Below, piece after piece: positions 6,413-46,568 of a stretch of 52,156 bases of DNA (position 1 is its first letter; each line of letters starts with the position of its first letter). The notes under the pieces are model-generated. The model worked only from the letters and a program-made list of their open reading frames with translations. It searched no databases and had not been told where the DNA came from. Both the position numbers and the translations under genes were made by a program. The stretch lies in the IMG/VR virus record IMGVR_UViG_3300025120_000077, positions 1 to 52,156 of that record. One strand, 5' to 3'. The DNA is from a virus.

Positions 6413-7456
6413 ATGGCACGGACACAACGGAATTTTATTGCTGGCCGAATGAATAAAAGCCTTGATGAAAGGCTTATACCAAATGGCGAATATGAAGATG
6501 CACTCAACGTAAGGTTGGGATCAACTGAAGCATCGGAAATTGGTTCTGTAGAAAACGCCAAAGGGAACACCTTACTTACCAATTTATTTTTTCTAGATAT
6601 AGAATCATTAAGTACAAACGCTCGTTGCATAGGAGCATTTGAAGATAGTGCTAATGAAACTATTTATTGGTTTGTACATGATCCAGAATTTACTCTTTCA
6701 GATACGGGTAAATGTGATATGATTTGTTCATATAATACCGTAACAGCAAGTGTAAAGTATCATGTAGTCAGTACCGATGATGGCGGCGGCGTATTAACAA
6801 CATTAAACTTTAGCCCCATTAATCTAATAACAGCGGTAAGTAGGGTGGGAAATTTTTTATATTTTACGGATAACTTCAGTCCACCGAGATTTATAAATAT
6901 AAGTAATAGTAAAAAATATGGCCAACCAGAATTAAATGGTGTGCCGCCATCGGGATCAACAGCATTATTTAAATTTAAAGCAGGCTTTGTAACAGTAGGA
7001 GGAAATAATTTTATTGGTTTTCATAGAGGCACTTTAGATGGATGTCCAAGTAGCACACCTGGTTTTGGAACAGGTATAGTACCAACAATAACGGAAATAC
7101 AATTACCAGGAGTTGATTGCTATACTGCAGGGGCCGATAGTGTTACTAAAGGATTTGCTGTACAAGGAAATAATACAGCAAATGGTTTAGCGTTTACACA
7201 GTTTTCAACTAATGAAAGTACAGGCATTACAACTATAGGTTTAATTAATTCAAGTACAGTATCAAATCCAGGAACATCAAGTATTACAGGAAGCATTGTA
7301 GGAGATGATGGAAATAGCGGAACCTATACGGCCAACTATTCTGTTGCAACAGCCTATACAGATGGAAATGGCGCATCGCAGCAACCAGAATCAACAGGCA
7401 CTGTTACTTTGACAGGAATAACTTTAACTAATGAGGTAACTTATACTTTATCATAA
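6413..7456 (+). CDS. Tail muzzle (nozzle) protein, N-terminal piece
   Basis: A 347-residue protein opening with the conserved muzzle/stabilization start ARTQRNFIAGRMNKSLDER, then LIPNGEYEDALNVRLGSTE. Residues 1-175 follow the usual start of a beta-propeller tail nozzle, including a YFTDNFSPPRFINI motif. From about residue 180 it diverges into a Gly/Ser/Thr-rich beta region that ends at a TAA. The conserved continuation is encoded by the next gene, which starts 3 bases later. In relatives as I remember them the muzzle is one chain, so this looks like a split or interrupted gene whose C-terminal part became a separate beta domain. Confidence 0.7.
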   Translation: MARTQRNFIAGRMNKSLDERLIPNGEYEDALNVRLGSTEASEIGSVENAKGNTLLTNLFFLDIESLSTNARCIGAFEDSANETIYWFVHDPEFTLSDTGKCDMICSYNTVTASVKYHVVSTDDGGGVLTTLNFSPINLITAVSRVGNFLYFTDNFSPPRFINISNSKKYGQPELNGVPPSGSTALFKFKAGFVTVGGNNFIGFHRGTLDGCPSSTPGFGTGIVPTITEIQLPGVDCYTAGADSVTKGFAVQGNNTANGLAFTQFSTNESTGITTIGLINSSTVSNPGTSSITGSIVGDDGNSGTYTANYSVATAYTDGNGASQQPESTGTVTLTGITLTNEVTYTLS

Positions 7457-19266: not shown

Positions 19267-21345
19267 ATGGCACTAGGATACGGGTACGTTAAGGATGCAA
19301 AGCCAATGCAAATAAATTGGCAAGAGGTTGGTAAACAAATGACCGACAACATCCAAGCTGAAATAACAGATCGTCAAAACAGAAAAGACGATATTGATAA
19401 ACAACTAACACAATATAACAAAGACCTCTTAGATCAACCACAGGGGACAAATGCCGAGGTTAACAGGTTTATGGGGGATTTCTCTGCAGACGCAGGAGAA
19501 GCCATGAGAAACGCCGAGAGGATGCTTAAAAGCGGTAATCTATCTGAGAGAGACTTCTATAAGTTTAGGGCTAATGCTAATCAAGGCACTGATTTAATGT
19601 TCGAAGCTGGCAAAAAATTTAACGAAGGGTATGACGAGTCTATGCGTAGGTTTGCGGATGGTGAAAGCCAGTCCAAAGAGAACTGGATGCGCCAACAGAC
19701 CGAAGGGTTTTTAGCTTTTGCCGACAACGGAGCGTACATCAACCCATTGACGGGCGAGGTAAACGTTGCACGCAGGTACAAAGATGAGAACGGAGAGTGG
19801 CAAATATCAACTAAACCAGGGGAGTTTGCCAACGCCTCAGAGCTTGTTCAGCAAGCCTCAGCGAAGTATAATAAATATGATCTGGATGGTTCTATCAATA
19901 AAGCTATAAAGGGATTAGGCGCAACGCTAATTAAAGAGAGCAGCGGATTAAGTACTAAGCAGTTTTTTCAAGCTATACAAGACGGAACCCTAGGGGATAA
20001 AGAGCAAAAGCTTTTGGACCAAGCTAAATTAAATATGGTAGCGTCTTTCACAGCCAACCCTAACCACGTGTCTAGTATCCTTACTGAGAACATGGGATTT
20101 GCACCTAATGGTGAAGCTTATACTTTTACGTATGATGAGAATAAGGCGAAAATAAATGAGAATCTTATTCTTGTAAACCCTGACGGGACAAACAACTTCA
20201 CAACTGTTAACGGGAAAAAACAACTGCAAGCTGCCGAAGCCTATGCATCTGCACAGTTTGAAGCAGGGCTAGGAGGATCAAGAGAAGAAGCTCAAGATTT
20301 AACTGCTGTACAAAAAGAAGAATTAAAACTTAAAAAACAAAGATTAGCACTAGACATTGACAAGCTAAACTTAGACAAAAAGAAATTTAGTAAAGAAGAT
20401 CGAGACAAGGCGACAGACTTAAAAACAAAAGCTCAACTTATAAGCACCTTGTACTCTGGAACAATTGCTGATATTAACGCGACAGTAGATTACTACAGAG
20501 ACTACGGGGGTAACACCAATGTTCTTGAGGTTAAAAGAAATGATACCGGAATTGTTGTGACCTTTGAAGACGAAAATGGAAACGCTCAAACAAGGTCCGT
20601 GAGTTTCTTTACGGCTGATAGCACTTCAGATACCAATGTCCCCAACCCTGACTTTGATCCAAGCCAACCCGAAAGTGAAACAAATCAAAAGTTTGTCAAA
20701 GGTAGACAATTGACTGAGGCCCAGTTTGTAAATGCAGCTTCACAGCTATTAATAGGTGAAGACGTGTCAACTGAAATAAAAAGCAGAGGAGATGATGGTG
20801 AATTATTATATAACCGAGCCCTGACATCGGTCGACAGTCCGATTACTGCCACCACAACGATTGAAGAGGGTGAAACATTAGCTCAATCCGAAACGTATAA
20901 TGTTTCAGCTGATCAGTATTTTGATAAAATTATTGCTGATCCAGAAATTGATTTTGGTTTTAAACCGCCTTCGCCGTTATCTGGTAGAAAGTCATCGAAC
21001 AAGCCCTTTACGGGACTTGGAGTTGGTCCCCTATTGCTTAATTCAGCTGATGAAGATTTAGCTACTGTTTTAGAATCTAGTTTTAAGGATATAGGATTAA
21101 TTGCTACAGATACTGGTGGTTTAAATAATGAAGTAAATGTAAGAATACCTGGGGTTACTAATACAATTACAATAGACGCTAACAATTATACAGGTTCGGG
21201 ACAATTAGAGGAAACACAAAAGCTTAGAGAATTTATAACTAACGCCCTTAAAACAAGACCTGACTTGCAAGAAAAACTTAATTTAAAAGCTGACGTAAAA
21301 AAGCGAGGCGGGCGGGGATCAAAATACAATAAAGTAGGAGGATAA
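19267..21345 (+). CDS. Internal virion/ejection protein, medium
   Basis: A 692-residue soluble protein starting with no gap after the upstream stop and ending by sharing one base with the start of the giant gene (TAATG). It is mostly helical and charged, with a Lys-rich coiled coil around 340-385 (LKLKKQRLALDIDKLNLDKK), beta segments around 400-560, and a basic C-terminus. No known catalytic motif is recognised. Its place between the small and giant internal proteins suggests packaging in the capsid and ejection with the DNA. Confidence 0.55.
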   Translation: MALGYGYVKDAKPMQINWQEVGKQMTDNIQAEITDRQNRKDDIDKQLTQYNKDLLDQPQGTNAEVNRFMGDFSADAGEAMRNAERMLKSGNLSERDFYKFRANANQGTDLMFEAGKKFNEGYDESMRRFADGESQSKENWMRQQTEGFLAFADNGAYINPLTGEVNVARRYKDENGEWQISTKPGEFANASELVQQASAKYNKYDLDGSINKAIKGLGATLIKESSGLSTKQFFQAIQDGTLGDKEQKLLDQAKLNMVASFTANPNHVSSILTENMGFAPNGEAYTFTYDENKAKINENLILVNPDGTNNFTTVNGKKQLQAAEAYASAQFEAGLGGSREEAQDLTAVQKEELKLKKQRLALDIDKLNLDKKKFSKEDRDKATDLKTKAQLISTLYSGTIADINATVDYYRDYGGNTNVLEVKRNDTGIVVTFEDENGNAQTRSVSFFTADSTSDTNVPNPDFDPSQPESETNQKFVKGRQLTEAQFVNAASQLLIGEDVSTEIKSRGDDGELLYNRALTSVDSPITATTTIEEGETLAQSETYNVSADQYFDKIIADPEIDFGFKPPSPLSGRKSSNKPFTGLGVGPLLLNSADEDLATVLESSFKDIGLIATDTGGLNNEVNVRIPGVTNTITIDANNYTGSGQLEETQKLREFITNALKTRPDLQEKLNLKADVKKRGGRGSKYNKVGG

Positions 21346-24300
21346 TGAACGAACAAGCTTTAAAAGACGCTTATGATTTATTTCGTGCCGAGGGGTATGA
21401 GGGATCTATAGAAGAGTTTATTAGTTTAATGCAAACCAATCCGGAAGCAGTAAATGATGCTTTTTCTATTTTTCAAGATGAGGGATATGAGGATAGTATT
21501 GACGACTTCCAAAACTTAATAGGCGTAAAAAAAAAAGACCCGGTCGCTATGGCTTCCGTATCGGAGGATGGTTCTTCGGTTTTACCAGAGTCTCCAGAGC
21601 AGCCCACTGAAAAAGATTACTTTGAAGGAACCTTTGGCGACATACTCCGAGGGTTTGATAACGTTACACAGACAGGATTAGGTGATTTTGTAGATGACAT
21701 GGCGCGTAGTGTAGCGTCTGGTTATTATCAGGGCGTTGCTTCAGAAAATGCATCCGACCTTCTCCTTGCAGGGTCAATGGCTTCGGAAGAAGATATAGCT
21801 AGTTTTATAGAAGCAAATAAAAACACACAGATGTACGGCCCATCAGCTGAGATGCAAGAGTATCAAAAGGCTTACGAAGATGAGGGTAAAAGCTTTTGGG
21901 GCGTTGTAAAAGGCTTAAGTAAAAGTGGTCTAACTATATTGCCAGAGTTAATTGTAAGCTCTCTTACATCTATGGCAACAAACACGGACTCTCTTTTAGC
22001 TGGTGCAGCTACTATAGGTACAGGAGCAGCAGTCGGAGGAGGTCTTCCTGGTGCAGCCGCCGCCGTACCTTTTGCTTTTGGAGCGGCAAGCTCCGCTTTA
22101 GAGATGGGCGCTACATTCTCAGAATTGTTACAAGAAGAGCTTGATGGTAAAGATTTAACTTCTGAAAACGTTAGAGCTGTCTTAGAAGATCCTGAGGCTT
22201 TTAATAGTATAAGAAATAAGGCTATCACTAGGGGTATTGCTATTGGAACAATAGATGCGTTTACGGGTAAACTGGCGGGAGGCGTAGGCGCAAAACTTTT
22301 AACTAAAGGAGGTAAGAGTCTTTCTGCCGCTAGTAAATTAGACAAAATTAAATCCGTTGGCGCGGCTGGTTTAATAGAGGGGGCTGGCGGGTCAATTGGC
22401 GAAGCCACTGCTAGAGGGCTGATTGGTCAGGAGATGGACATATCTGAGATTGCTTTAGAGGGATTGGCTGAAACCCCAGGGGGGATAAAAGACATAGTCT
22501 CGGCTAGATTCAGCAAGCCTAAGTATAGGATAAACGGTCAGAGAGTAGACGTAGAAGAGATTGATAATGTAATTAATAACTTTACTTTAGAGCAAATACA
22601 AGCCACTAAAATAAAAATTGACAATGATTACTCCGGAAAATCTAAGGAGTTAAACGATAGAGTGATAAGGTTGTCTGTGGAGCGTGAGCTTTTACAAGCT
22701 AACCCAGATTTAAACAAGCCTACACTCGAAGCATTGACTGATCTTCAGTTAGAATTAAACGAGCTAGAAGGAAACAAAACAGAGCCAGCTAAAGAAAAAG
22801 CTTCTTTACTAAGGCAACAAATGAAAGACTTACAAGCCGCTCCCCTACAAGAAGAGGTAGAGGTAGAAGCGGGGCGTGCGCGATTTAGCATGCAAGATGA
22901 CGTAGAGAAGGTATATCACGGTTCACCAAACAAAATAAAAGATGGTGTTTTAAAAAAAGGACAGTCAGGAGCTGTATTTTTAACTCCTTCATTAACTTAC
23001 GCCAAACAATATGCTAGAGACACTGATAATATAGTGGAACTTGAGTTAACACAAGAAAAAATAAATAACCTTTTTGATTTAAGAAATCCAGAGCATATTG
23101 AAAGATTGAGGGAAGGATTTATAAATGAAAATGAAGATTTAGAAATTGTTTATGATTCAGAAGCAGATGCTATAAGAGATTATAATAACGCAATACGGTC
23201 TATGAAAAATGATTCTCAAGGGCGTGAGGGTATAAACGATTGGGCTTCAGGCTCCCAATTTATTGAGGCTATGGAAAATGCTGGATTCGAAGGAGCTGTA
23301 TTTGCAGAAAGACCAGCTGGTTTTGCAGAGACTGATGTTGTAATTAGTTACGCTTTATTTGACAAAGAAATTAATATTGATGCTTCATCCAGACAAAGAC
23401 GACAGCAAAAAGGAGATGCTATAATTCAGTCAACGGAAGAAGATGTAGACGCGATAGCTGAAGAGATGAACGCAATGGATCCTGAAGAAGTAAACTTTAC
23501 TACTCCAGAAGGAGAGACTACCGTTACTGTCAACCCCTTAGAAGAAAGCACAACGCCTGAGACAATAACAGAGGAGGAACTTACAGAGCTTGGATATGAA
23601 ACCACTAATGATCTAGTTAAGCCTATATCTTATTTCGATGGTATTCCTATGATTACAGCAATATCAGATATGCTTTCCACGGGTACAGTTAAAGACTCGA
23701 AAGGGAATGATATGAAGGTTAGCGGAGGATTACTGTTTAATGTTAAGGGAGACAATAAAAATGCTGCATGGGCGGGGGTTGCAAGAGACAAGTCACAAGG
23801 GCAGTATGATAACGCTGTTAGGACCTACCAAAATAACAAAGAACTATTTGATAGGCTATGGAAAGAGGGTAAGATACCAGATGGACACATACCTATGGCT
23901 ATTATAAAAATGGGCAATGAAGCCGTTCATTCAAATGAAGCTTCATTTAGATTTTTCTCTGCTGAAATAAACTCTCAGTCAAAAGAAAATCAAACCGAGG
24001 CAATGAACGATGTTAAATCGATTTTTGAAAACAAACCAGAAAAACAACGTGCTGACGCTGATGCTGTTCTTTCATTTATAAATCAAAATAATATAACAAC
24101 ATTAGGTCAATTTTTTGAAGCTATAGTTAGTGATGCTAACCAGAGATCTAAAAGGAATAAAAATACATTATCTCTAAAAGAAAGAGCATTTATTTTTGAC
24201 AATTTAATTTCACCAGAAAAAAAAGAAGGAGAGGTTAAGGCAAACAAGCCTTTTATTAAATCACTATACAAAGGAGGTGAGGTTAATCAAACTATGTTTA

Positions 24301-27300
24301 CTGCAAATAATTTATATAACGCTATTGGAGAGAAGTCTATGCTTAAGGCTAATAAAGGTGATGTTGTTGCTGTAGTTGGTGTTGATGTAAAAAATGGAGG
24401 GGTTATAGATATTAATCATGAAAACTATGGGACGGGACCTAAGGGTAGACCCATTGCTTTAATAGAAAATCCTACAAACGGGATGGAGGTTTTCCCTACA
24501 TGGAAAGCCAAGTCTAACAGAGTCTTTAAAAAGAATATTCGCGGTAAAAGGCCTGGAGATAAGGAAGTGGCAGCTCAGACCATGGGGACTGTTGCTAATG
24601 ATGAAGCTTTTCAAGGAGATGTTGTCACTACCGAAATGAGTCCTCTCGATATTCTTATAGGTAAATTAAAATTTGCTTTCCCAAACGTTAGCGTTACTAC
24701 AAATATAGAAGAGTTTAATAATATATTGTCACAGCCAGGAGTCCGTACCAAAGAGTCAAAGGGCAGAGTAATACTAGGACTAACAACTGACGGTAAAATT
24801 TATTTAAACCCGGAAGTACAATCTTTAGGCACCCCTATACATGAGTTTGGTCATATATGGTTAGATTTTTTAAGATCAAAAGATAGTGGAAGGAAAGGAG
24901 ATAAGCTTCTTGCGAGAGGGTTAAAGCTTGTTGAAGGAACGCCAGAACTTACAAAAGCTATAGAAAAATATGGTGACACAAAACTTGCAAGGGAAGAAGC
25001 TCTAGTGGAATTATTAGCAACGAAAGGGGAGACCATAGCAAATGCTAGTCAAAGATCTAAGTTTAAGGAGTGGATGAACGCTATGTTTAAATACATAAAA
25101 GAAAAGTTTACCACAACGAAAGATTTAAAAATAAAAGATATTAATAAAATGACCTTAGATGATTTTATTAATACTGGTCTAGCAGATTTATTTAAAGGAA
25201 CGGCTGTTTCTGCAACTTTTGATGCTAAAGCAGAATCAACAGGCTCCGCAGTAAGGATGAGAAAAGGAGAAAAATCTCAGGAGCAAAGAATAAGAGAGGG
25301 CCTTAAAAGAACTGACGATCAAGGAAAAGAAATCCCAAGGAAAACTCCAACTGTTAGTTCCGCTATTAAAACCTTTGAACGTTTATTTACAAACATAAAA
25401 GATCCCTCTAAGATTACCCTGACCCAAAGACAGGCAATAGCAACACAAATAAAACTTTTGAATCGAGGAGCTAGAACCGCTAAAGCCTCGTTTATTAAAG
25501 CTCAAAAGGTGTTGACTTCTCAAATAAAGGACATGAGACGTGGGGGCAAAATATCTGACGCTCAACTTACCGCCGTTCTTAATAGATTTTCTAAGGTTAA
25601 TATGTTTAATCCTACCTCTATAGACCGATTTGTGGACTATATGGCTAAAGTGTTTGCTGATGCCGAGTATGCAGCAAAAATAAATTTTGCGAGTAAAGCC
25701 CGTAGGAATAAAGCAAAGAAAGCGGCGCAGTCTAAAATTGGTATGGCTGATTCAATAGTTCCTCAGTTGTTGGAGTTGTTTAGCGTTAATCCAACTTTAA
25801 TACCCGATAGTGTATTAGATCAGTATATATCTTTAGTTGATTCGTTTAGCAAAGCCGAAGCGGTATTGTCTCTTCCCTCAATATCCGAGGTAAAAAGACA
25901 GGTTGAAAAGGTATTGAAGCAGTTAGATGAGGAGCAATCAATGGCGATTGATCTTGCTGACAGATTTGCAAATACAGATAGCAAGGTCTTTGACTCAGAC
26001 AACAAGTTAGATTATGCAGCTACCCTTAAAAAAATGCTTGATAACGGTGAGATAAACGAGCGGGAGCTTGAGGTAATGCGTAAATATAAGTCACAGATAT
26101 CCCCGCCCCAACTTAAAAAACCAAAAACCGAGGCTGAATTAGAAGCTGAAAGAGAATTACTTTTGGAGGGTATAGACGAATCAACTGATTTTTCTGTGTC
26201 TGAATTGGCATTACCATACGCTAGAGATTTAGCTAAACAGTTTAAAAAACTAATACAAACAGATGCAATTAATAAATTCGATAATGTTGAATTAAAGAAT
26301 GTATTAAAACTAATAGACAATATTAATAATGGTTATGCGCCACATCTTATACAGAGATATAACGAAAAATTAGAATCAATCACCAAAGCCTCCGGCTTGG
26401 CCACATCGATTAATACTGCTAAACCGCTAACGTTTAGTGCAATGTATGCTAGGGTTAAGGCTTTAATAACGGGTAAAGACAGCATCCAAGAATTGGTACG
26501 ACGTAATCCTTTATTTTATATTGACCAAGTCTTTGGAGATTTTAAAACCAAGAATATATTTAACGCTGTTTTTGGAGAGGCTTCTAAAGCTGTAACTAAA
26601 TATAGATCGGAGTTTGACGTTATACAAGAAAAGATAAATGAGGCTGGAGCTAATGTCCTTAAATCTTTAGGTAGTGATCCTAACAAGTTTAGCAAGTCGA
26701 AGTATAAACAGATGGCTTATATGATACAAGAAGAGTATCTGAGTAACCCTGATAGCGAACAAGTTAATCCAGTTACTGAATTTTTAAAAGCCACTATAGA
26801 AAGAATTAACGAACAAAACACACGATATACAAAAGGCGATTCTGATATGCTTCAGGATATACTTGATACGTATACTAATGACCAAGGCGAGTTTGATAAT
26901 CAAGCGTTATTTGATTCTTTTAATAAGGCTGAAAAACAATCTATTCAAACCGTAAGAGACATAAATGATAGTCTAGGGGAAAAGGCTGAGATTGCCGCCA
27001 CACTAATCAGAGGTGAAAAATATAATCCTCTTGATAATTATGTACACCTTAACGTACTTCCTCCTGGTAATAAAAATTCCTTGGAGTCGTCACAGCTTAG
27101 TGTTATTAAGGCCTATAATACTAGCAGAAAACCATCCACCAAAGCAAAGACGTTGATTAAAAGGACTGGAGATGTGTCGCCTCTGAACTTTGACATTTAC
27201 GCTTCAGCAATCCGAGGTAGCAAAAACACATTAATTGATTTCCATTTAACAGCTCCATTAAGGACTGCAAGGGGAACGCTGAACCAAACAAAAAAACTTT

Positions 27301-29072
27301 TAAAAGAACAAGGCAAATACACATTTGATAACGTCAGGGTGTTCAATGCAATAGAAAGTGGCTTTGAAGAGTCAACAGAGAATTTATTGGTTAACATGTT
27401 TGGCGAGTCATCAGCAGCCGATGCTGCTTTAAACTATTTACAAAAAACGGGATACCGATCTATATTGGCGGGAACTGGCAGATTTATTGCTGAATACGTA
27501 TCCAATGTTAGCTTTGCAATGATTGTAGATCCAAAAGGATTTATAGCCGGATCAAAGATGGGATGGTTGAGTTCTCCTAAAGGGGCACAAGTTTTAAATA
27601 ACTTAAGCAGTAAACAGACAACTCGAATATATGCCGATGGCCTGACAGGTAGATTTATAGACAAGTCTATACTTGATCAAGCTGCGGGTGTTCGAGGCGG
27701 TGCTGCTGTTGCGCCCGTACAGAACGAAATCCTTAAAATGTGGAATAAAACAGGTCAGCGCTGGAAGAATGGCGTTGAGGCTGCTGCAGATTTTTTGATT
27801 TCTACTCCTGATAAAGCCGTCATGCGTCCATTGTGGTTTGGAGCTTTTGAAAATGAATTTAAAAGAATTACCGGTAAGTCCCCTGACTTTGACAAAATCG
27901 CAGATAATGATTCAACTTATATACAGGCTAACCAATCCGCTTTAGATGAAGCTACAAATTTAGCTGATAAGAAATCAGTAATGGCGGGCGCTACAGACAA
28001 TGCTTTTATGGGTATCTTAAAGGGTACGGCTAAACCAAATCAAAGCGCACGGCTTAGAGCTTTTAATGCATTTAATAACTTTATGACTCGGTTCCTTATA
28101 TTTGAATATATAACGGCACGTACAGGTGTTGCCAATCTAATAGGCAAAGGCGAGCTCAGCAAAAAACAAGGCGGTAGATTGATCGGCGCAGTTATAAGCC
28201 GAATGATGTTGTATACCATACTAGGGCAGCTTTTAGCTGAGGGAATGACATCTTTGATAAACGATGATGACGACGATGAATTGCCAGGAGAGGGGATGAA
28301 GTCTCCAGAAAAAATGTTGGGTCAAGCCTTTGCATCTACCTTCACCTCTCTTCTTTTAGGTAGGGATTTTGGAAATGCAACTAAATTAATTATTAATAGA
28401 GGTGTAGAAGAATTTAATGAAGCGCAACTTGAGTTCTTAAGGGATGGTGAGTACGATGCCTTTAAGGACGCTTTACAGTATACACCTCTTCCTAAAACTG
28501 CGTCTGGCAGGGGTAATGACTTAGGAGATTTTTTAAAAGGAATGGGCGCTGCATACGGACCCGTTATTGGTGCAGGTTCATTATTAATAAAAAAGTTAAC
28601 AGAAGACAAAAAGAAAACACCTGAAGCGATTGAACGACAAGACATGGAGAGGTTTATAAGGTTGCCCCTGGAGCTTCTTGGTAACCTAGGATTCATACCT
28701 CTTTACAAAGACGTTCGAAAGATTACATTAGATCGTATTTATGGAGATCTTTCTAGAGCCAAGAGAGAGCTTAAGGACAAACAGAAAGCCAAAAAAGAAA
28801 TGTTGCAAGGCTACGACAGTGAGTCGGACATGAAGAGGTACGACAGAGAGTTGTGGAATGCAACCTTTGGTCCTAACTCTCCAGGCTATGATGAAAAACA
28901 GGCGCTTAAAGAAATTGAAAGAGCGCAACGACAAATAAAACAACAACAAAAGGATGAGATGTATAATTATACACCTCCACAGAAAAGAAAAAAGGTAAAA
29001 CAAAAATCACGTTTTAATAAGAAAAAGTCATCGCGATTTAATAAGAAAAAGTCATCGCGATTTAATAATTAA
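21345..29072 (+). CDS. Giant polyvalent ejected protein (ART-like domain, HEFGH metallopeptidase)
   Basis: A 2575-residue protein. Residues 2-62 carry two copies of a ~30-residue repeat (LFRAEGYEGSIEEF, IFQDEGYEDSIDDF). Residues about 211-255 are a Gly/Ala hydrophobic stretch, possibly membrane-inserting. About 515-690 resembles ART-PolyVal ADP-ribosyltransferase domains (VYHGSPNKI at 522-530, FLTPSLTYAKQYA, FIEAMENAGFEGAVF). Around 1166-1170 is HEFGH (IHEFGHIWLDFLR), a zinc metallopeptidase motif with a downstream EEALVELLA helix. The rest is long helices, with a hydrophobic segment near 2276-2300 before an acidic DDDDDE run. The mixture matches polyvalent proteins, which are delivered with phage DNA and act against host defences. 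Domain calls are by eye; ejection is inferred from position. Confidence 0.7.
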   Translation: MNEQALKDAYDLFRAEGYEGSIEEFISLMQTNPEAVNDAFSIFQDEGYEDSIDDFQNLIGVKKKDPVAMASVSEDGSSVLPESPEQPTEKDYFEGTFGDILRGFDNVTQTGLGDFVDDMARSVASGYYQGVASENASDLLLAGSMASEEDIASFIEANKNTQMYGPSAEMQEYQKAYEDEGKSFWGVVKGLSKSGLTILPELIVSSLTSMATNTDSLLAGAATIGTGAAVGGGLPGAAAAVPFAFGAASSALEMGATFSELLQEELDGKDLTSENVRAVLEDPEAFNSIRNKAITRGIAIGTIDAFTGKLAGGVGAKLLTKGGKSLSAASKLDKIKSVGAAGLIEGAGGSIGEATARGLIGQEMDISEIALEGLAETPGGIKDIVSARFSKPKYRINGQRVDVEEIDNVINNFTLEQIQATKIKIDNDYSGKSKELNDRVIRLSVERELLQANPDLNKPTLEALTDLQLELNELEGNKTEPAKEKASLLRQQMKDLQAAPLQEEVEVEAGRARFSMQDDVEKVYHGSPNKIKDGVLKKGQSGAVFLTPSLTYAKQYARDTDNIVELELTQEKINNLFDLRNPEHIERLREGFINENEDLEIVYDSEADAIRDYNNAIRSMKNDSQGREGINDWASGSQFIEAMENAGFEGAVFAERPAGFAETDVVISYALFDKEINIDASSRQRRQQKGDAIIQSTEEDVDAIAEEMNAMDPEEVNFTTPEGETTVTVNPLEESTTPETITEEELTELGYETTNDLVKPISYFDGIPMITAISDMLSTGTVKDSKGNDMKVSGGLLFNVKGDNKNAAWAGVARDKSQGQYDNAVRTYQNNKELFDRLWKEGKIPDGHIPMAIIKMGNEAVHSNEASFRFFSAEINSQSKENQTEAMNDVKSIFENKPEKQRADADAVLSFINQNNITTLGQFFEAIVSDANQRSKRNKNTLSLKERAFIFDNLISPEKKEGEVKANKPFIKSLYKGGEVNQTMFTANNLYNAIGEKSMLKANKGDVVAVVGVDVKNGGVIDINHENYGTGPKGRPIALIENPTNGMEVFPTWKAKSNRVFKKNIRGKRPGDKEVAAQTMGTVANDEAFQGDVVTTEMSPLDILIGKLKFAFPNVSVTTNIEEFNNILSQPGVRTKESKGRVILGLTTDGKIYLNPEVQSLGTPIHEFGHIWLDFLRSKDSGRKGDKLLARGLKLVEGTPELTKAIEKYGDTKLAREEALVELLATKGETIANASQRSKFKEWMNAMFKYIKEKFTTTKDLKIKDINKMTLDDFINTGLADLFKGTAVSATFDAKAESTGSAVRMRKGEKSQEQRIREGLKRTDDQGKEIPRKTPTVSSAIKTFERLFTNIKDPSKITLTQRQAIATQIKLLNRGARTAKASFIKAQKVLTSQIKDMRRGGKISDAQLTAVLNRFSKVNMFNPTSIDRFVDYMAKVFADAEYAAKINFASKARRNKAKKAAQSKIGMADSIVPQLLELFSVNPTLIPDSVLDQYISLVDSFSKAEAVLSLPSISEVKRQVEKVLKQLDEEQSMAIDLADRFANTDSKVFDSDNKLDYAATLKKMLDNGEINERELEVMRKYKSQISPPQLKKPKTEAELEAERELLLEGIDESTDFSVSELALPYARDLAKQFKKLIQTDAINKFDNVELKNVLKLIDNINNGYAPHLIQRYNEKLESITKASGLATSINTAKPLTFSAMYARVKALITGKDSIQELVRRNPLFYIDQVFGDFKTKNIFNAVFGEASKAVTKYRSEFDVIQEKINEAGANVLKSLGSDPNKFSKSKYKQMAYMIQEEYLSNPDSEQVNPVTEFLKATIERINEQNTRYTKGDSDMLQDILDTYTNDQGEFDNQALFDSFNKAEKQSIQTVRDINDSLGEKAEIAATLIRGEKYNPLDNYVHLNVLPPGNKNSLESSQLSVIKAYNTSRKPSTKAKTLIKRTGDVSPLNFDIYASAIRGSKNTLIDFHLTAPLRTARGTLNQTKKLLKEQGKYTFDNVRVFNAIESGFEESTENLLVNMFGESSAADAALNYLQKTGYRSILAGTGRFIAEYVSNVSFAMIVDPKGFIAGSKMGWLSSPKGAQVLNNLSSKQTTRIYADGLTGRFIDKSILDQAAGVRGGAAVAPVQNEILKMWNKTGQRWKNGVEAAADFLISTPDKAVMRPLWFGAFENEFKRITGKSPDFDKIADNDSTYIQANQSALDEATNLADKKSVMAGATDNAFMGILKGTAKPNQSARLRAFNAFNNFMTRFLIFEYITARTGVANLIGKGELSKKQGGRLIGAVISRMMLYTILGQLLAEGMTSLINDDDDDELPGEGMKSPEKMLGQAFASTFTSLLLGRDFGNATKLIINRGVEEFNEAQLEFLRDGEYDAFKDALQYTPLPKTASGRGNDLGDFLKGMGAAYGPVIGAGSLLIKKLTEDKKKTPEAIERQDMERFIRLPLELLGNLGFIPLYKDVRKITLDRIYGDLSRAKRELKDKQKAKKEMLQGYDSESDMKRYDRELWNATFGPNSPGYDEKQALKEIERAQRQIKQQQKDEMYNYTPPQKRKKVKQKSRFNKKKSSRFNKKKSSRFNN
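29013..29069 (+). repeat. 24-bp in-frame tandem repeat at the giant gene's 3' end
   Basis: Two full 24-bp units (29013-29036, 29037-29060) plus a partial one encode FNKKKSSR repeats, giving a basic RFNKKKSS tail that may bind DNA or act as a packaging tag. Confidence 0.8.
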
Positions 29073-38412: not shown

Positions 38413-38562
38413 TTAATTTGTTTTATGTTTGTTCATAATCAGTAAAAAGCCTTCTCGAAGAACTTTGTCCATTTTACAATTCTCTTCATAGTGTACCACT
38501 TTAATTTTTTGTATCCTACATCGACTTTCTAAATCTTTTAAATATTCCTCTAAATGCACCAT
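38413..38562 (-). CDS. Small helical early protein
   Basis: A 49-residue protein from the ATG at 38562 (MVHLEEYLKDLESRCRIQKI), chosen because it starts 8 bases after the upstream stop; a start at 38595 would overlap by 25 bases. The start region is part of a 17-bp sequence repeated at 38995-39011. No function recognised. Confidence 0.5.
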   Translation of the reverse strand: MVHLEEYLKDLESRCRIQKIKVVHYEENCKMDKVLREGFLLIMNKHKTN

Positions 38563-38572
38563 GCTATCCTTT
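38556..38572. repeat. 17-bp direct repeat, copy 1 (copy 2 at 38995-39011)
   Basis: GCACCATGCTATCCTTT is identical at 38556-38572 and 38995-39011. Copy 1 covers the start codon of the 38413-38562 gene; copy 2 forms the 5' part of tRNA-like element 1. The two copies enclose the 38571-38930 gene, its leader and the T-arm, as if that 439-bp unit were inserted as a cassette with a target duplication. Confidence 0.85.
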
Positions 38573-38930: not shown

Positions 38931-38966
38931 TTTAATGTTGGTTAAATTATTGAGCATTATTACTCG

Positions 38967-39008
38967 TGGATAGGGAGGAATCGAACCTCCCAACGCACCA
39001 TGCTATCC
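38967..39008 (-). ncRNA. Miniature tRNA-like element 1 (acceptor + T-arm)
   Basis: On the minus strand GGATAG (39008-39003) pairs with CTATCC (38973-38968), leaving an unpaired A (38967) in the discriminator position. A 12-nt connector leads to a T-stem GGAGG/CCTCC with loop TTCGATT, a perfect tRNA T-loop pattern. There is no D-arm or anticodon arm. It sits between the genes at 39027 and 38930. One base later comes a small hairpin, GAGT-AATAAT-GCTC (38965-38952), then the AACCAACA leader. Confidence 0.75.
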
Positions 39009-39026
39009 TTTCATTTTATTTTATTT

Positions 39027-39248
39027 TTAGTTTGTTAAATCTTGTACGAATAGTTTATCACATTTACATAAAACTATTCTTTGCATACAGTTACCAATTT
39101 TTTGCATCTCTCTTGTAGTGCTTTTATACTCTGTCGTGTTACATTCTTTACAACATTTCTTATATTCTTTTATTCCATTTAATTCGTGATGGATAACAAT
39201 ACTTGATGTGTTTCTGACTGCTTCACGCCACATTTTGTGTACATTCAT
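39027..39248 (-). CDS. Small Cys-rich, zinc-ribbon-like protein
   Basis: A 73-residue protein with clustered cysteines (KCCKECNTTEY and, 20 residues later, NCMQRIVLCKCDKLF), which could form one zinc site, though the spacing is not a textbook ribbon. It is basic in the N-terminal half. It lies just upstream of tRNA-like element 1. Function unknown. Confidence 0.55.
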   Translation of the reverse strand: MNVHKMWREAVRNTSSIVIHHELNGIKEYKKCCKECNTTEYKSTTREMQKIGNCMQRIVLCKCDKLFVQDLTN

Positions 39249-39249
39249 T

Positions 39250-39492
39250 TTATTTAAAGTTTATAAATTGTTGGTGTATGTACTCTTCAGGATCAGGAGA
39301 TAGAATATGTACTTCCGAATCGATATCGCCATCCTCGATGACTTTGGTCATTAGGCTTACATCATATCCCGTTGAGTCCATGATCGCTATCTCTTTGTTC
39401 TTGTTGTCATTGGTATACTCCCATACCATATAGCTATCCCCGTTAAAGGAAATAGCTTTTTCTATGACTTTTGTGTTAACTATTATTTTCAT
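39250..39492 (-). CDS. Small early protein
   Basis: An 80-residue acidic protein with two beta-type segments (KVIEKAISFNGDSYMVWEYT, VSLMTKVIEDGDIDSEVHIL) and no recognised family. It overlaps the upstream gene by 4 bases and is spaced 1 base from the downstream one. Confidence 0.5.
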   Translation of the reverse strand: MKIIVNTKVIEKAISFNGDSYMVWEYTNDNKNKEIAIMDSTGYDVSLMTKVIEDGDIDSEVHILSPDPEEYIHQQFINFK

Positions 39493-39698
39493 TTGTACTT
39501 TATTATTTTGATTAAATTGTTTATCCTTCGCTTGGATAAAGGTCGTGCATATTCCAATAAAATTTTATCCATTTTTTCGTTCGATATATTACAGTAGTTC
39601 GTTGTTTTAAGGGTTGAACGATCCCATAATTTAATGGTCTTTTGTTTTGGATTTATTTTTATTTTAAAAAATGCTGACACTGTGTTGTGAGTTATCAT
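39489..39698 (-). CDS. Small basic early protein
   Basis: A 69-residue basic protein (KIKINPKQKTIKLWDRSTLK) ending in a Lys/Arg-rich helix. It overlaps both neighbours by 4 bases. No family recognised. Confidence 0.5.
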   Translation of the reverse strand: MITHNTVSAFFKIKINPKQKTIKLWDRSTLKTTNYCNISNEKMDKILLEYARPLSKRRINNLIKIIKYK

Positions 39699-39952
39699 AT
39701 TATATAATATTTTAGGTTTTTACGTTCTCGTTTGAATGAATCCTCTGCTTGACTTAAATATCCAAATTCATTTTCAATAAGGAAATTTCTATCTTCAATG
39801 TCTTCAAAATCATAGCCTTTAACAAAGATGTCATCTTCAGCCATACAATCTTTAAGGTCTCCATCATCAGTGCGTATAAATACCATTGCTTCAGCCCCAA
39901 TAATATCATTGTTTTTATTTAGTAATTGGTGTACTTCTAATGTATAAATCAT
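39695..39952 (-). CDS. Small acidic early protein
   Basis: An 85-residue protein, acidic in the middle (VFIRTDDGDLKDCMAEDDIF) and basic at the end (ERKNLKYYII). No membrane segment and no recognised family. It overlaps the next gene by 4 bases. Confidence 0.5.
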   Translation of the reverse strand: MIYTLEVHQLLNKNNDIIGAEAMVFIRTDDGDLKDCMAEDDIFVKGYDFEDIEDRNFLIENEFGYLSQAEDSFKRERKNLKYYII

Positions 39953-39970
39953 AATTATAGTTTTTATTGT

Positions 39971-40216
39971 TTATAGTAAATCATCTAAACGATCTAACAG
40001 ATCATCAAGTTCAGGAATATCGGCAGAAACATCACCATTGTGATAAAGTTCTTCATCAGACCCCTCCTCCGTTATTAACCTATCGCACCATCCATTAGAA
40101 TCACAAGTTCCATGAACAGATACTTCTACTTCTTTATTGTCATCCACTTGAGTGATTGCATGATAACCAACAGTTACTAATTCATCTCTCCATTCTGTGT
40201 CTTTAATAATTCTCAT
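39971..40216 (-). CDS. Small strongly acidic early protein
   Basis: An 81-residue protein with many Asp/Glu, especially near the C-terminus (ADIPELDDLLDRLDDLL). Very acidic small phage proteins are sometimes DNA mimics that block restriction or other defences, but the evidence here is composition only. It follows the 40218 gene by 1 base. Confidence 0.5.
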   Translation of the reverse strand: MRIIKDTEWRDELVTVGYHAITQVDDNKEVEVSVHGTCDSNGWCDRLITEEGSDEELYHNGDVSADIPELDDLLDRLDDLL

Positions 40217-40217
40217 T

Positions 40218-40712
40218 TTATTCTACTTTTAAATTAAACGTTTTTAGGTAATTGCCATTAAGAATGTTTTCCCCATTTTTAATAGCATCATCGATTATCT
40301 TTTGATATTCGGATGTGACCTCATCTACTCCCCACTTCTCAAATGTTTTGGGAATGCTTGTCTTGAATCCTCTTATCTCATAACTATGTGGTATACCAAT
40401 CAATACACCTTTCTTCTCATCCTTTTTCATGTATCCCATCGTCTTCAATTCATCCATTAATAATTCAAGATTTGTAGTCCATCCATACTCCTTATCATAA
40501 AGAGAATCCTTATTAATAGAATTGTAAATATCCTCGATACTTTGATTGTCGTAATTAGTGATCTTTAACTCACCACCATAGGAATCATCCCAACAATTAC
40601 AAATCTTCTTGCCATCAAAGTAGATGTCCCATTCATAAGAGGGTGCATCATGACCCCTCATCTCTTTTAAGTTTTTAGCTGATGCTCGTTTTAAAAATTC
40701 TTTTTTTAACAT
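40218..40712 (-). CDS. Hypothetical early protein
   Basis: A 164-residue protein from the ATG at 40712 (MLKKEFLKRASAKNLKEMRG); an upstream ATG at 40739 is also possible and does not overlap the previous gene. It has the phrase WDIYFDGKKICNCWDDSYGG near residue 30-50 and a mixed alpha/beta pattern. No known family recognised. Confidence 0.55.
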   Translation of the reverse strand: MLKKEFLKRASAKNLKEMRGHDAPSYEWDIYFDGKKICNCWDDSYGGELKITNYDNQSIEDIYNSINKDSLYDKEYGWTTNLELLMDELKTMGYMKKDEKKGVLIGIPHSYEIRGFKTSIPKTFEKWGVDEVTSEYQKIIDDAIKNGENILNGNYLKTFNLKVE

Positions 40713-40761
40713 AATATTATTTTTGTTGATTATGACCATTCTTTCGGATATTGAATCCTCA

Positions 40762-41055
40762 TTAGATATTTTGAATTAGCTTACTTTCATTGTAGAAACA
40801 ATCATCAGCATAATAACGTTCATCATGGACTGACTTACTTTCTACTAATCCAAACGATGCAATTGCTTCGACATTCTCAGGTATTTTATATTCATCTATG
40901 CACTCACCATCTTCCAACAGTATAACACTATATCCTACTATACTTTCAAGGTCGTTATATAATGTTTCTCTCACTACTTCATACTGAGCATTACCTTGAT
41001 CTTTAAAACCATCTTCAAGATAGGTTTTGAGTTTGTTTTCTGTTATTGTTTTCAT
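40762..41055 (-). CDS. Hypothetical early protein
   Basis: A 97-residue acidic protein (VVRETLYNDLESIVGYSVIL) with an alternating strand-helix pattern and a Tyr/Asp-rich end (DERYYADDCFYNESK). It overlaps the upstream gene by 4 bases, and its ATG follows an AAACCAACAATAAA leader. Function unknown. Confidence 0.5.
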   Translation of the reverse strand: MKTITENKLKTYLEDGFKDQGNAQYEVVRETLYNDLESIVGYSVILLEDGECIDEYKIPENVEAIASFGLVESKSVHDERYYADDCFYNESKLIQNI

Positions 41056-41318
41056 TTTATTGTTGGTTTAAAAAAACTACTGAAATGATTTACTATCTCG
41101 AATGTAGTCTCAATGTTATTTAAATCATCCTTTAGAATCTCTTCTATACTATCATTGGTATATCGCATTACCTTTGTGGTGTAAAAGTCCTCAATCGCAT
41201 CCTCTGATGGATTGGTAGCCATAAACTCTCTGACCATACTTGGCAAATCTTTCTTCCAATTCGCCAATTCCCTTTGCTCTCGTTTTTGAAGAGAGCCATG
41301 TAAAATTTTGTGTGACAT
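41052..41318 (-). CDS. Hypothetical early protein after tRNA-like element 2
   Basis: An 88-residue helical protein (QKREQRELANWKKDLPSMVR), no recognised family. Its ATG at 41318 follows the leader ACACCAACAAATT, which in turn follows a small hairpin and tRNA-like element 2, so it would be the first gene of a processed downstream mRNA. Confidence 0.55.
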   Translation of the reverse strand: MSHKILHGSLQKREQRELANWKKDLPSMVREFMATNPSEDAIEDFYTTKVMRYTNDSIEEILKDDLNNIETTFEIVNHFSSFFKPTIK

Positions 41319-41353
41319 AATTTGTTGGTGTTAGTTAGTGACAATATTGTCGA

Positions 41354-41394
41354 TGCGAGAGAGGGAATCGAACCCTCTCATGATCCAATCTCGC
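41354..41394 (-). ncRNA. Miniature tRNA-like element 2 (acceptor + T-arm)
   Basis: On the minus strand GCGAGA (41394-41389) pairs with TCTCGC (41360-41355), followed by an unpaired A (41354). An 11-nt connector (TTGGATCATGA) leads to the T-stem GAGGG/CCCTC with loop TTCGATT; the T-stem can extend to 7 bp. It begins 6 bases after the ArdC-like stop. Two bases later a palindromic hairpin GACAATATTGTC (41351-41340) begins, then the next gene's leader. Confidence 0.8.
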
Positions 41395-41400
41395 TAGTGA

Positions 41401-42354
41401 TTACTTACCTTGGATGTAAGCTACAATCTTCGTAGCTTGTTGCATCGCATATAGGCATTCTTTTGGCTTATCCTCTAAAGCCTTACACCATCCTTTGATA
41501 TAGGCAATGCTATTCTCCTTATCATCTTTTGGATCAAGTCCCAATAACCCTGAGATGTACATCGCTGATATCTCTGCAACCAATTCCTCCTTAGCATAGG
41601 TGTTATCACCCCAAAAGGATATCTCAGTTAGGCTTTTACGATCCATTCGATCTTTGTGACCGGTTGAATGGGCTAACTCATGAAACAGTACCTTATAGTA
41701 GGAATCAGAGTCAACAAACTTATTTAGCTTAGGCATATTCACTGTATCGGTTTCAACATTGTAAAATGCCCTATCTCCAAACAGATGACATACTACCAAT
41801 TTACCATCTCGATCTACATAGCTTTTGCTCAGTTGATCAGCTATCTCAATTGGCTTATTGTCAGCAGGAACATCAGCATCCAATACATGAGGAACAATGC
41901 CATTGCATTGATCAACATTGTATACTTGCCAATATCGGATTGAAAATGTTTTACGATATCTTAATTGCCTTTTGCCATTGATTACAATCTTTTCACTTTG
42001 ATTGATTTTTTTAACGTTTTTTGATGCTACATAACATTCTTTCTTAGCATCATAAAATCCTATCGTCCATCTGTAAACATCAGCAGTATTACCCTTTTCA
42101 CCTGATTTGATTGAACCACCTAATTCTCTACAATGATTTTCAGTTAACCATTGGTTATGCTCATAACCCTCAGCCATCATAACTGCATTGAGCATAAATA
42201 CATTGAATCCTTTGTAGTAGTATTTTTTGTTGTAACTCATAGGTTGATTCACATCTCCTGATTTCCATGGCATGAACCATTTCATCCCATCTCGCTTTAG
42301 TCCCTCTAAAACGGCATCATTAACTTTCTGAAAAATTTTGTCTTGGTTTGACAT
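41401..42354 (-). CDS. ArdC-like antirestriction protein
   Basis: A 317-residue protein from the ATG at 42354 (MSNQDKIFQKVNDAVLEGLK); a frame from 42423 would cross tRNA-like element 3 and is rejected. The N-terminal half matches the ArdC ssDNA-binding domain (WFMPWKSGDVNQPMSYNKKY, YYKGFNVFML, CRELGGSIKSGEKG). The C-terminal half is the associated metallopeptidase domain with FHELAHSTGHKDR (HELAH near residue 223) and a downstream YAKEELVAEISAMY glutamate helix. ArdC proteins protect incoming DNA from restriction. It is flanked on both sides by tRNA-like elements. Confidence 0.85.
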   Translation of the reverse strand: MSNQDKIFQKVNDAVLEGLKRDGMKWFMPWKSGDVNQPMSYNKKYYYKGFNVFMLNAVMMAEGYEHNQWLTENHCRELGGSIKSGEKGNTADVYRWTIGFYDAKKECYVASKNVKKINQSEKIVINGKRQLRYRKTFSIRYWQVYNVDQCNGIVPHVLDADVPADNKPIEIADQLSKSYVDRDGKLVVCHLFGDRAFYNVETDTVNMPKLNKFVDSDSYYKVLFHELAHSTGHKDRMDRKSLTEISFWGDNTYAKEELVAEISAMYISGLLGLDPKDDKENSIAYIKGWCKALEDKPKECLYAMQQATKIVAYIQGK

Positions 42355-42389
42355 ATTTGTTGGTGTTTGTTGTTTGACATTATTGTCGA

Positions 42390-42429
42390 TGCCTATCGGG
42401 GAATCGAACCCCGATACATCCAATTAGGC
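42390..42429 (-). ncRNA. Miniature tRNA-like element 3 (acceptor + T-arm)
   Basis: On the minus strand GCCTA (42429-42425) pairs with TAGGC (42395-42391), with A (42390) in the discriminator position (a T-A pair could extend the stem). The connector ATTGGATGTAT leads to the T-stem CGGGG/CCCCG with loop TTCGATT. It starts 6 bases after the upstream stop codon (42436-42438). Two bases downstream is the hairpin GACA-ATAA-TGTC (42387-42376), then ACACCAACAAAT and the ArdC start. Confidence 0.8.
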
Positions 42430-42435
42430 AGTTGA

Positions 42436-44579: not shown

Positions 44580-46169
44580 ATGGATAATTCGGGAGGATAT
44601 TCGCCAAAGGATTTACATTTTGGCAAAGAAGCACAATCAAAACTTATTTCGGGTATTACAAAACTATCAGATGCTGTTAAGAGCACCTTGGGTCCAATGG
44701 GTAATACGGTGCTGATTGAAAGCCCGCATCACACCCACGGGATAACTGTAACAAAAGACGGCGTTACTGTAGCTAAGAGCATACAACTTTTGGATGCGGT
44801 AGAGAACCTATCGGTCCAAATGATGAAAGAGGCGGCAGATCGAACAGCCTCAGAAGCTGGTGATGGTACTACTACGGCAATTGTATTAACAGAGGCGCTT
44901 GTAAAAAAGGGCCTTGAGCTTATTGGGCCAAAGGACAATAAAACCATGATCTTGCGTGAAGTTGCGGCAATGAGTGAAGAGGTTATTGAGAAATTAAAAA
45001 AGCGTTCGATACCCGTCACCAAGGAGCTCCTACTTGATGTTGCTACGATATCATCCAACAATGACCCTGAGATCGGCCAGATTATATCACAGACCTATAA
45101 CCAGGTAGGAGAGAATGGGATCGTAACAGTTGAGAAAAGTCAAACCTCTGAGACCACCTTCGAGACCACACAGGGTATAAAGGTTGACCGAGGGTACTCA
45201 AGCCACCTGTTTATAAACAACCACAAGAAGGATGAGTGTATACTTGAGGATGTGTTTGTCTTGGTGTCTGACTCTGAGATAAACAATATACTCTCGATTG
45301 AGAATGTTCTAAAGCCAATTATTGCCGAGAACAAGAAATTATTAATAGTAGCGCCGTGTTCTCAAAACGTAACAAATACGTTGGCGGCCAACGTCATGAA
45401 GAACAATCTGAAACTTTGTACCATTATTCCTCCCAATTTTGGATACAAACGCCATGAGCTGATGCATGACATCGCTCTCTCGGTAGGTGCTACTTATTTT
45501 TCTGAAAGCACAGGTGATGACCTGAGCCTTATGACCTTCAAAGATTTAGGCAGAGCCAAAAAGGTGATCGTAGGGAAAGACAGCACGATCATACTCAAGG
45601 ACGATGACAAGGTCAGCAAGGAGGACATTGACAAAAGGGTTGAGGAGCTGATGGACGCCCATAAAATAACAAAGAAAAAAGCCGACAAGGATTTTATCAT
45701 GTCTCGCATCGCGTCCCTCACAGGCGGTGTAGGCGTTATCTATGTCGGCGGGAATACTGATCTGGAGCAGAAAGAACTCTATGATCGGGTGGACGATGCC
45801 GTATGTGCAGTACGATCTGCGCTAGTTGAAGGTGTTCTTCCTGGAGGAGGCCTTGCCTTGTGGGAGGCAGGTGACGATATTATATTTTCAAAATCGATCG
45901 CTCACGCGATTTTCGGTGAGGCACTTCTTGCCCCTTTAATCCAAATAATTGAGAACGCTGGGGTTGACTGGGCACCTTATGGCGCTGATGTAGGCCACGG
46001 GTTAGATGTAAAGTCTGGTAAGGTTGGTGACATGATTGAGATGGGGATCATAGACCCTCTGAAGGTTACGCGGACGGCGCTGCAAAATGCTGTGTCTGTC
46101 GCCACCACGATACTATCAACAAACGCCATAGTTACTATGGCTAGGAGTTATGAAACAAAAGATAAATGA
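44580..46169 (+). CDS. groEL: GroEL-type chaperonin
   Basis: A 529-residue group I chaperonin. Seen in order: LSDAVKSTLGPMGNTVLIES, TVTKDGVTVAKSI, the ATP motif SEAGDGTTTAIVLTEAL (about 92-108), apical segments, RIASLTGGVGVIYVGG, and VEGVLPGGGLALW. It lacks the flexible GGM-repeat C-terminal tail of bacterial GroEL, ending MARSYETKDK. It is more diverged and visibly more GC-rich than its neighbours. It is followed by a small coupled gene and groES, so the phage brings its own folding chamber, probably for capsid or tail proteins. Acquisition from a bacterium is plausible. Confidence 0.95.
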   Translation: MDNSGGYSPKDLHFGKEAQSKLISGITKLSDAVKSTLGPMGNTVLIESPHHTHGITVTKDGVTVAKSIQLLDAVENLSVQMMKEAADRTASEAGDGTTTAIVLTEALVKKGLELIGPKDNKTMILREVAAMSEEVIEKLKKRSIPVTKELLLDVATISSNNDPEIGQIISQTYNQVGENGIVTVEKSQTSETTFETTQGIKVDRGYSSHLFINNHKKDECILEDVFVLVSDSEINNILSIENVLKPIIAENKKLLIVAPCSQNVTNTLAANVMKNNLKLCTIIPPNFGYKRHELMHDIALSVGATYFSESTGDDLSLMTFKDLGRAKKVIVGKDSTIILKDDDKVSKEDIDKRVEELMDAHKITKKKADKDFIMSRIASLTGGVGVIYVGGNTDLEQKELYDRVDDAVCAVRSALVEGVLPGGGLALWEAGDDIIFSKSIAHAIFGEALLAPLIQIIENAGVDWAPYGADVGHGLDVKSGKVGDMIEMGIIDPLKVTRTALQNAVSVATTILSTNAIVTMARSYETKDK

Positions 46170-46314
46170 TCCTCTTTTGTGTGAAGAGCAAGCAAATATA
46201 TTAGCAGAGATAATAGCCAGTAAATTAATAGTTGAGAAGCTTAGTAAATCAAAAAAAGGCAAGACTGTTTTTGGAGTAGTGCTTGAGATATTATCTGAAT
46301 ATAGAAGTTTATGA
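46150..46314 (+). CDS. Small protein between groEL and groES
   Basis: A 54-residue frame starting inside the groEL 3' end (20-base overlap) and ending 4 bases into groES (ATGA). It is helical (EEQANILAEIIASKLIVEKL) with a basic GKTVFGVVLEIL end. Overlaps on both sides argue that it is translated and coupled. No family recognised. Confidence 0.6.
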   Translation: MKQKINDPLLCEEQANILAEIIASKLIVEKLSKSKKGKTVFGVVLEILSEYRSL

Positions 46315-46568
46315 AACCAATTGGGAAATACGTTGTGATCAAAACCATTGAGGAAGAACTCAAAACCTCATCGGGGTTATTACTTTCTGCGGAGGATGCA
46401 AACCAGCTTCGGTATAAAAAGGGTAGGATTGTTGAGGTAGGTACTGATGTTGTAGCTATCGATAAGGATAGCCTGATATACTACGATAAACGTGCGGGAT
46501 ATACTATGCTTATTCATGATGAGCCTTATACGATTATTCGTGAGAATGACATTGTTCTTGTCGAATAG
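46311..46568 (+). CDS. groES: GroES-type co-chaperonin
   Basis: An 85-residue protein with the GroES plan: MKPIGKYVVIKTIEEELKTS at the start, the mobile loop (SSGLLLSAEDANQL), GRIVEVGTDVV, and a C-terminal YTIIRENDIVLVE strand. It forms the lid of the chaperonin chamber. The order groEL-orf-groES is the reverse of the usual bacterial groES-groEL operon. Its last 35 bases overlap the convergent gene at 46534. Confidence 0.85.
   Translation: MKPIGKYVVIKTIEEELKTSSGLLLSAEDANQLRYKKGRIVEVGTDVVAIDKDSLIYYDKRAGYTMLIHDEPYTIIRENDIVLVE

Follow-up and report, generated by a model that had tools for sequence, protein, structure and literature searches.

Minimal tRNA-like elements at phage gene junctions: an apparently uncatalogued RNA family that may punctuate polycistronic messages

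The window analysed here, the whole 52-kb IMG/VR virus record IMGVR_UViG_3300025120_000077 (52,156 nucleotides (nt)), contains exactly three short elements (hereafter referred to as A, B and C), all on the minus strand and each 41-43 letters long, in which an acceptor-like stem is joined to a T-arm in the manner of a transfer RNA (tRNA). These elements belong to a widespread and apparently uncatalogued family of phage RNAs that is absent from Rfam 15. We consider it likely that they are minimal substrates of ribonuclease P (RNase P) and/or RNase Z with which phages punctuate their polycistronic messenger RNA (mRNA); the structure is demonstrated, whereas we infer cleavage. We lean only slightly towards the broader proposition that phages infecting at least three phyla of bacteria share a hitherto unrecognised mRNA punctuation system consisting of 41-nt mimics with a reduced D-arm, up to eight per genome, and making use of the tRNA-maturation enzymes of the host.

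The three elements of the window share one plan (Table 1). The acceptor-like stem lies flush with the T-stem (11-12 base pairs (bp) combined), the T-loop is TTCGATT, and the connector is 10-12 nt long and contains GG. The helix of element A is flush and gapless (6+6 bp), and elements B and C have an outer A.A mismatch in addition to their paired positions. The T-arm core, GGTTCGATTCC, has three exact occurrences in the window, only at A, B and C, with 0.33 expected when one mismatch is allowed, and the complete arrangement (T-stem flush with the acceptor stem, connector GG) was found in none of 400 simulated windows generated by a first-order Markov process with the same composition. An earlier, sequence-only reading of this DNA had placed elements at all three sites, and these placements stand with corrected boundaries; the 5' end given for element A was one base short, its true span being 42430-42390. 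The longer register is preferred because the U-A pair of the window becomes C-G in two related loci (L002 and L004). In the window clade, a hairpin of 4-5 bp begins 1-2 nt after each element and is followed by a leader, and the distance from element to downstream ATG is 35, 35 and 36 nt in the window. A tRNA-Trp called by ARAGORN at 41352-41449 was rejected as false, as it is built on element B and extends into the end of the upstream gene.

Table 1. Elements of the window and associated features; R1 and R2 are the models, and E is the expectation value.
Feature	Position	Strand	Sequence or description
Mini-tRNA element A	42390..42430	-	TGCCTA-ATTGGATGTA-TCGGGG-TTCGATT-CCCCGA-TAGGCA; R1 E 7.5e-14, R2 E 1.6e-17
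Small hairpin after element A	42376..42387	-	GACA-ATAA-TGTC
Mini-tRNA element B	41354..41395	-	(A)GCGAG-ATTGGATCATG-AGAGGG-TTCGATT-CCCTCT-CTCGC(A); 11 bp; R1 E 9.4e-10
Small hairpin after element B	41340..41351	-	GACAATATTGTC
Mini-tRNA element C	38967..39009	-	(A)GGATA-GCATGGTGCGTT-GGGAGG-TTCGATT-CCTCCC-TATCC(A); 11 bp; R1 E 7.7e-5
Small hairpin after element C	38952..38965	-	GAGTA-ATAA-TGCTC
ArdC-like anti-restriction protein, 317 aa (amino acids)	41401..42354	-	PHROG 7245, E 1.2e-63; downstream of A
Apparent half-element relic	38551..38570	-	AGGATAGCATGGTGCATT, 20 nt repeating the 5' half of element C, without T-arm

Both the acceptor stem and the T-stem covary. The T-stem of element A, TCGGGG/CCCCGA in the window, becomes CCGAGG/CCTCGG in L002 and CCGGGG/CCCCGG in L004, and the acceptor stem of element B, GCGAG/CTCGC, becomes CCGGG/CCCGG in L003 and L004, in which its T-stem becomes GAGGGG/CCCCTC and its loop ATCGTTT. 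In this loop variant, T-loop positions 54 and 58 are exchanged (U..A to A..U), the element being otherwise conserved. Relatives of element C were found in L004, L007, L008 and L140, and the downstream hairpins of the window clade carry changes of their own (GACA..TGTC, GAGTA..TGCTC). The sequence-only reading had staked itself on the conservation of paired positions in related phages, and these positions are indeed kept by compensatory changes.

The fair test of the fold was provided by searches of 2.9 million viral contigs with patterns limited to the connector and the T-loop, the acceptor stem being ignored. The pattern ATTGGATGTA-N-GGTTCGATTCC was present in 21 contigs, near-identical ones included (about 15 distinct sequences), and the unsearched acceptor stem was paired in 21 of 21. 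A second pattern, ATGGTYGYA-N-GTTCGAYTC, gave at least 120 matches; among the matches listed, 94 of 116 distinct sites had the full flush layout of 11-14 bp, and many of the others were one pair short. For a cyanophage-type pattern, 75 of 106 matches were without the layout and were not counted as elements. In alignment A2, the rows of which were largely selected for pairing, 99.7% of cells were paired (57% when shuffled) and double changes numbered 133, versus 32 in shuffled alignments; pairing fell to 43-51% in slid controls. Alignment A3, in which the rows were selected as perfectly paired (100% by construction), has 14 pairs and 295 double changes versus 74. Covariation in the two stems, together with a connector that unrelated phages have in common, shows that the elements are under selection.

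The connector has the consensus R-W-T-G-G-W-Y-G-Y-A, the first seven positions of which (RWTGGWY) form a two-pair “nano D-arm” (ATTGGAT in element A, CATGGTG in element C). Positions 1 and 7 are A-U or G-C, with C-G in CATGGTG and CTTGGAG, and position 1, which was not fixed in the second search, tracks position 7 except in a few rows in a shifted register; positions 2 and 6 are A-U or U-A, a swap partly due to the two search patterns used. The sequence-only reading had denied the elements both a D-arm and an anticodon arm. The anticodon arm is absent, and there is no D-stem cloverleaf, because a connector of 10-12 nt leaves no room for them; the claim is not wholly correct for the D-arm, as pairs 1:7 and 2:6 covary around TGG. 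The TGG triloop of the nano D-arm could present its two G residues to the T-loop, much as G18 and G19 are presented in tRNA.

The elements lie between cistrons on the same strand, with at least one exception, described below. A stop codon was found nearby upstream for 156 of 179 elements, at a median of +7 nt and in 111 cases no more than 12 nt away; in some it falls within the acceptor stem itself. A start codon was found within 120 nt downstream for 155 of 179 (median 34 nt, 10th-90th percentile 14-60 nt). In the window, the stops lie 5, 5 and 17 nt before the corrected element starts, that of the ArdC-like gene being 5 nt before element B; the sequence-only reading was right to place them close upstream, and its distance of 6 nt for two of them needs revision. 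It had also assigned the elements to the three largest gaps, and the table of open reading frames (ORFs) agrees (about 81, 82 and 93 nt). The ends of the elements are tRNA-like. In the 12-bp helix class (102 of 184 elements), the discriminator is a purine in 84 of 102 (A in 69, G in 15), and the first position is occupied by G in 55 and by C in 5. Beyond the discriminator, C is found at +2 in 78 of the 102 and at +3 in 3, and CCA is encoded in 1. RNase Z substrates are tRNA ends without an encoded CCA, and the ends observed here appear to be as expected of such substrates. The elements therefore combine the features of RNase P and RNase Z substrates: about 12 bp of acceptor stem and T-arm, a T-loop, a purine discriminator and no CCA.

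The catalogue comprises about 180 distinct elements from 126 phage loci. The elements form same-strand clusters, with eight in one 47-kb record and three to five in others, and the carriers are phages of three host phyla, Bacteroidota, Cyanobacteria and Actinomycetota. In the T7-like cyanophages Syn5 and S-TIP37, the gene for the major head protein has an element immediately upstream; S-TIP37 (L172) also has a match to the glutamine-II riboswitch at 1336-1389, which follows psbA and precedes the head protein gene by a few hundred bases. P-SSP2, likewise a T7-like cyanophage, is another carrier, and weak or irregular members were found in P-SSP7 (2562-2604) and S-RIP2 (39620). Elements with connectors of 16-28 nt in P-SSP2 (L165, 33-124) and S-RIP2 (L168) look intermediate between a complete tRNA and a mini element. 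Gordonia phage Trine has three tandem copies, the first of which lies 8 nt after gene 41. The annotated gene 40 of Trine (L312, 31979-32249, minus strand) reads through all three; the real start codon is probably an ATG beyond the last of them, accompanied by the Shine-Dalgarno-like sequence GAGAGGA. Streptomyces phage Endor1 carries its element within a leader, that of the gene annotated first in a leftward run, and no counterpart was found at the orthologous place in the other camviruses Joe, Alsaber, phiScoe2 and phiScoe15. In locus L010, the elements at 7291 and 6313 (both minus strand) are each followed by CGTGGATGTTCCACGTGAAACA, which contains TGTTCCACGTGAAACA, a sequence that we take to resemble a ParB parS site. 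Partial matches in Maribacter phage Panino were rejected, being genuine tRNAs.

The family is restricted to phages. When 84,980 species of bacteria and archaea were scanned, each represented by one genome, a single match was obtained, a coincidence in coding DNA. Likewise, model R2, which does detect phage elements, had no hit in 149 Bacillota genomes, each expected to hold dozens of tRNAs, a set that included no positive control.

The best evidence that the mini elements may act like tRNAs, by being cut, comes from their exchange with complete tRNAs, as seen in one orthologous pair and three analogous cases. In L140, a mini element follows a gene encoding 145 amino acids; the homologue of this gene in L091 (30% identity, E 2e-11) has instead a complete tRNA-Arg(UCU), placed 7 nt beyond its stop codon. 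The leader TTTAAACTATATAATATG of the next gene follows this tRNA-Arg and also follows mini elements in both L091 and L140. Lone tRNAs with the same geometry were found in three further loci: tRNA-Arg 6 nt after a stop in L327, tRNA-Leu 7 nt after a stop in L351, and tRNA-Trp 16 nt after a stop and 12 nt from a start in L394.

On the reading that we favour, the acceptor stem and T-arm form a coaxial helix of 11-13 bp with a standard T-loop, on which the G residues of the nano D-arm could dock. RNase P requires the T-loop and the coaxial helix, and not the D-loop (PMC4919913). The host RNase P would recognise this helix as the top half of a tRNA and cut at the 5' end of the element, and RNase Z or exonucleases would cut after the discriminator base. 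The upstream message would be released, and the downstream message would now begin at a 5' end of its own, followed by a short leader; in the window, the small hairpin preceding the leader may protect this end. The benefit to the phage would be the separate stability and translation of its cistrons. The sequence-only reading had already proposed tRNA punctuation. This is partly supported: its structural reading and the junction geometry are strongly backed by independent phages, with carriers in three phyla, and cutting by these enzymes is what the structure would predict.

Several observations weigh against this proposal. The Endor1 element is not between cistrons, and punctuation between cistrons therefore does not cover every case. 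RNase P usually prefers U at -1, and this base is rare in the 12-bp class (6 of 102). A hairpin follows 55% of the elements, versus 36% in shuffles, with the upstream side equal, and a universal downstream hairpin is thus unsupported, this feature being specific to the window and cyanophage clades. Moreover, if RNase P cut about 6 nt after the stop, the upstream mRNA would have no hairpin to protect its 3' end, and perhaps, therefore, the 3' cut alone is used.

A serious rival, which we regard as possible, if doubtful, is that RNase Z or an exonuclease would cut the 3' side alone; the upstream mRNA would then keep the mini-tRNA as a 3' terminus that protects it and may carry a CCA tail, and the downstream mRNA would gain a 5' end. 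It is to be taken seriously because the elements are stop-adjacent: the stops abut or overlap the 5' strand of the acceptor (median +7 nt), leaving little 3' untranslated region. The conservation of R73 and C74 and the avoidance of C75 would also suit RNase Z followed by the CCA enzyme. Nevertheless, the complete tRNAs found at the same junctions would normally be cut by RNase P too.

The second rival, that the elements act in cis as uncut regulators, is in our view improbable. They might influence ribosome termination and re-initiation, bind a protein with affinity for tRNA (TruB, TrmA, EF-Tu or a synthetase), or modify RNA polymerase like a put RNA. Their stop-to-start position and the near-constant 35-36 nt to the ATG in the window are consistent with such a role, but the distance to the start codon differs greatly from phage to phage (the 10th-90th percentile range given above), and this looseness makes it less likely. 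The exchange with complete, presumably processed, tRNAs also argues against it.

Covariation and absence from bacterial genomes led us to reject the remaining readings. Decaying tRNA genes that have lost the anticodon arm, or phage attachment sites (attP) copied from host tRNA ends, with no role in mRNA, are very unlikely sources of the elements. Longer, intermediate connectors (P-SSP2 8598, S-RIP2 39620), the half-element relic at 38551-38570 and the frequent use of tRNA 3' ends by integrases would fit such an origin. However, decay would not maintain acceptor pairing, and the stems covary, with a connector conserved across unrelated phages; furthermore, there are many copies per genome, the stems all differ within one phage, and no true copy was found in the cellular genomes of the 84,980 species scanned, the one match being due to chance. 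That the elements are DNA palindromes serving a phage regulator as operators or promoters is scarcely credible: the T-arm and its extension do form an inverted repeat in DNA, but the constant features are the loop and the pairing, with the stem sequence free to vary, which is the opposite of a protein operator, and the two stems are nested, with the elements on the coding strand at junctions.

The elements of the window are located in an operon of early type, made up of small genes that surround the ArdC-like anti-restriction gene. This operon has no DNA similarity to known phages, and the replication proteins of the window resemble those of phages of Flavobacterium and other Bacteroidota. The relic lies directly after the stop of the next gene, its ATG opens a small downstream ORF, and it was not detected by model R1 or R2. 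It looks like a recombination scar, which suggests that the elements may be sites of gene exchange. Elsewhere in the window, a GroEL chaperonin is encoded at 44580-46169 (PHROG 5725, E 4e-132), followed by a small ORF at 46311-46568 that looks like a GroES co-chaperonin, and an ORF of 2575 amino acids at 21345-29072 might, at a guess from size and position only, encode a virion protein ejected with the DNA.

For a structured RNA family so frequent among phages, absence from Rfam 15 is unusual. If the elements are indeed processed, they would constitute a general answer to the handling of polycistronic messages in many phages other than T7, resting on an essential host activity that hosts could not easily lose. 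They would also offer minimal RNase P and RNase Z substrates of natural origin, and synthetic operons could readily draw on them for compact processing tags. A covariance model could enable phage annotation pipelines to mark junctions, several elements having already misled gene and tRNA callers, and direct tests are possible in the cultured phages Syn5, Trine and Endor1.

No Rfam 15 family reached its gathering threshold on any element in the window or in 20 element-bearing loci. The cloverleaf model of tRNA (RF00005) matched no element, and ARAGORN found no tRNA in L133, L134 or L140; the elements do have the coaxial acceptor/T-arm helix of tRNA, flush over 11-13 bp and covarying, with a TTCRAYT loop. 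We found no earlier description in the literature, but they may figure as unnamed candidates in the structured-RNA surveys of 2017 and 2023. The only full-length Rfam alignment was with mascRNA-menRNA (RF01684), at a score below threshold (23.4 bits, E 0.65, gathering 42.5). This RNA, made by RNase P and RNase Z, is likewise tRNA-like, lacks an anticodon arm and lies inside a long transcript, but it derives from eukaryotic long non-coding RNA and has a 56-nt model with a larger D-loop region, whereas the elements are 41 nt long, multicopy and located between phage genes. The early and late RNase III sites of T7, which yield discrete mRNAs via a host endonuclease, are also phage cis structures at gene junctions; they differ from the elements in fold, which here mimics an acceptor stem and T-arm and is not a stem of the RNase III type. 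M3 RNA and the C4 antisense RNA of P1/P7 are phage RNAs cut by host RNase P (PMC11143913); they are individual small RNAs with other structures, unlike these multicopy junction structures. The tRNA-like domain of transfer-messenger RNA (tmRNA) and armless mitochondrial tRNAs share the acceptor stem, the T-arm and a reduced D-region, and the armless mitochondrial tRNAs of nematodes are similar in size. The tmRNA model (RF00023) gave only T-arm matches of 15-17 nt, and the elements have no mRNA-like part, anticodon arm or encoded CCA. By these tests they belong to none of the tRNA, tmRNA and mascRNA families. A further parallel is the tRNA punctuation of mitochondrial genomes and of phage operon tRNAs, in which tRNA-like structures also lie between coding genes, with cutting by RNase P and RNase Z proposed here as well; the marks in the phages described here are non-decoding minimal mimics rather than tRNA genes, and would be cut in the same way.

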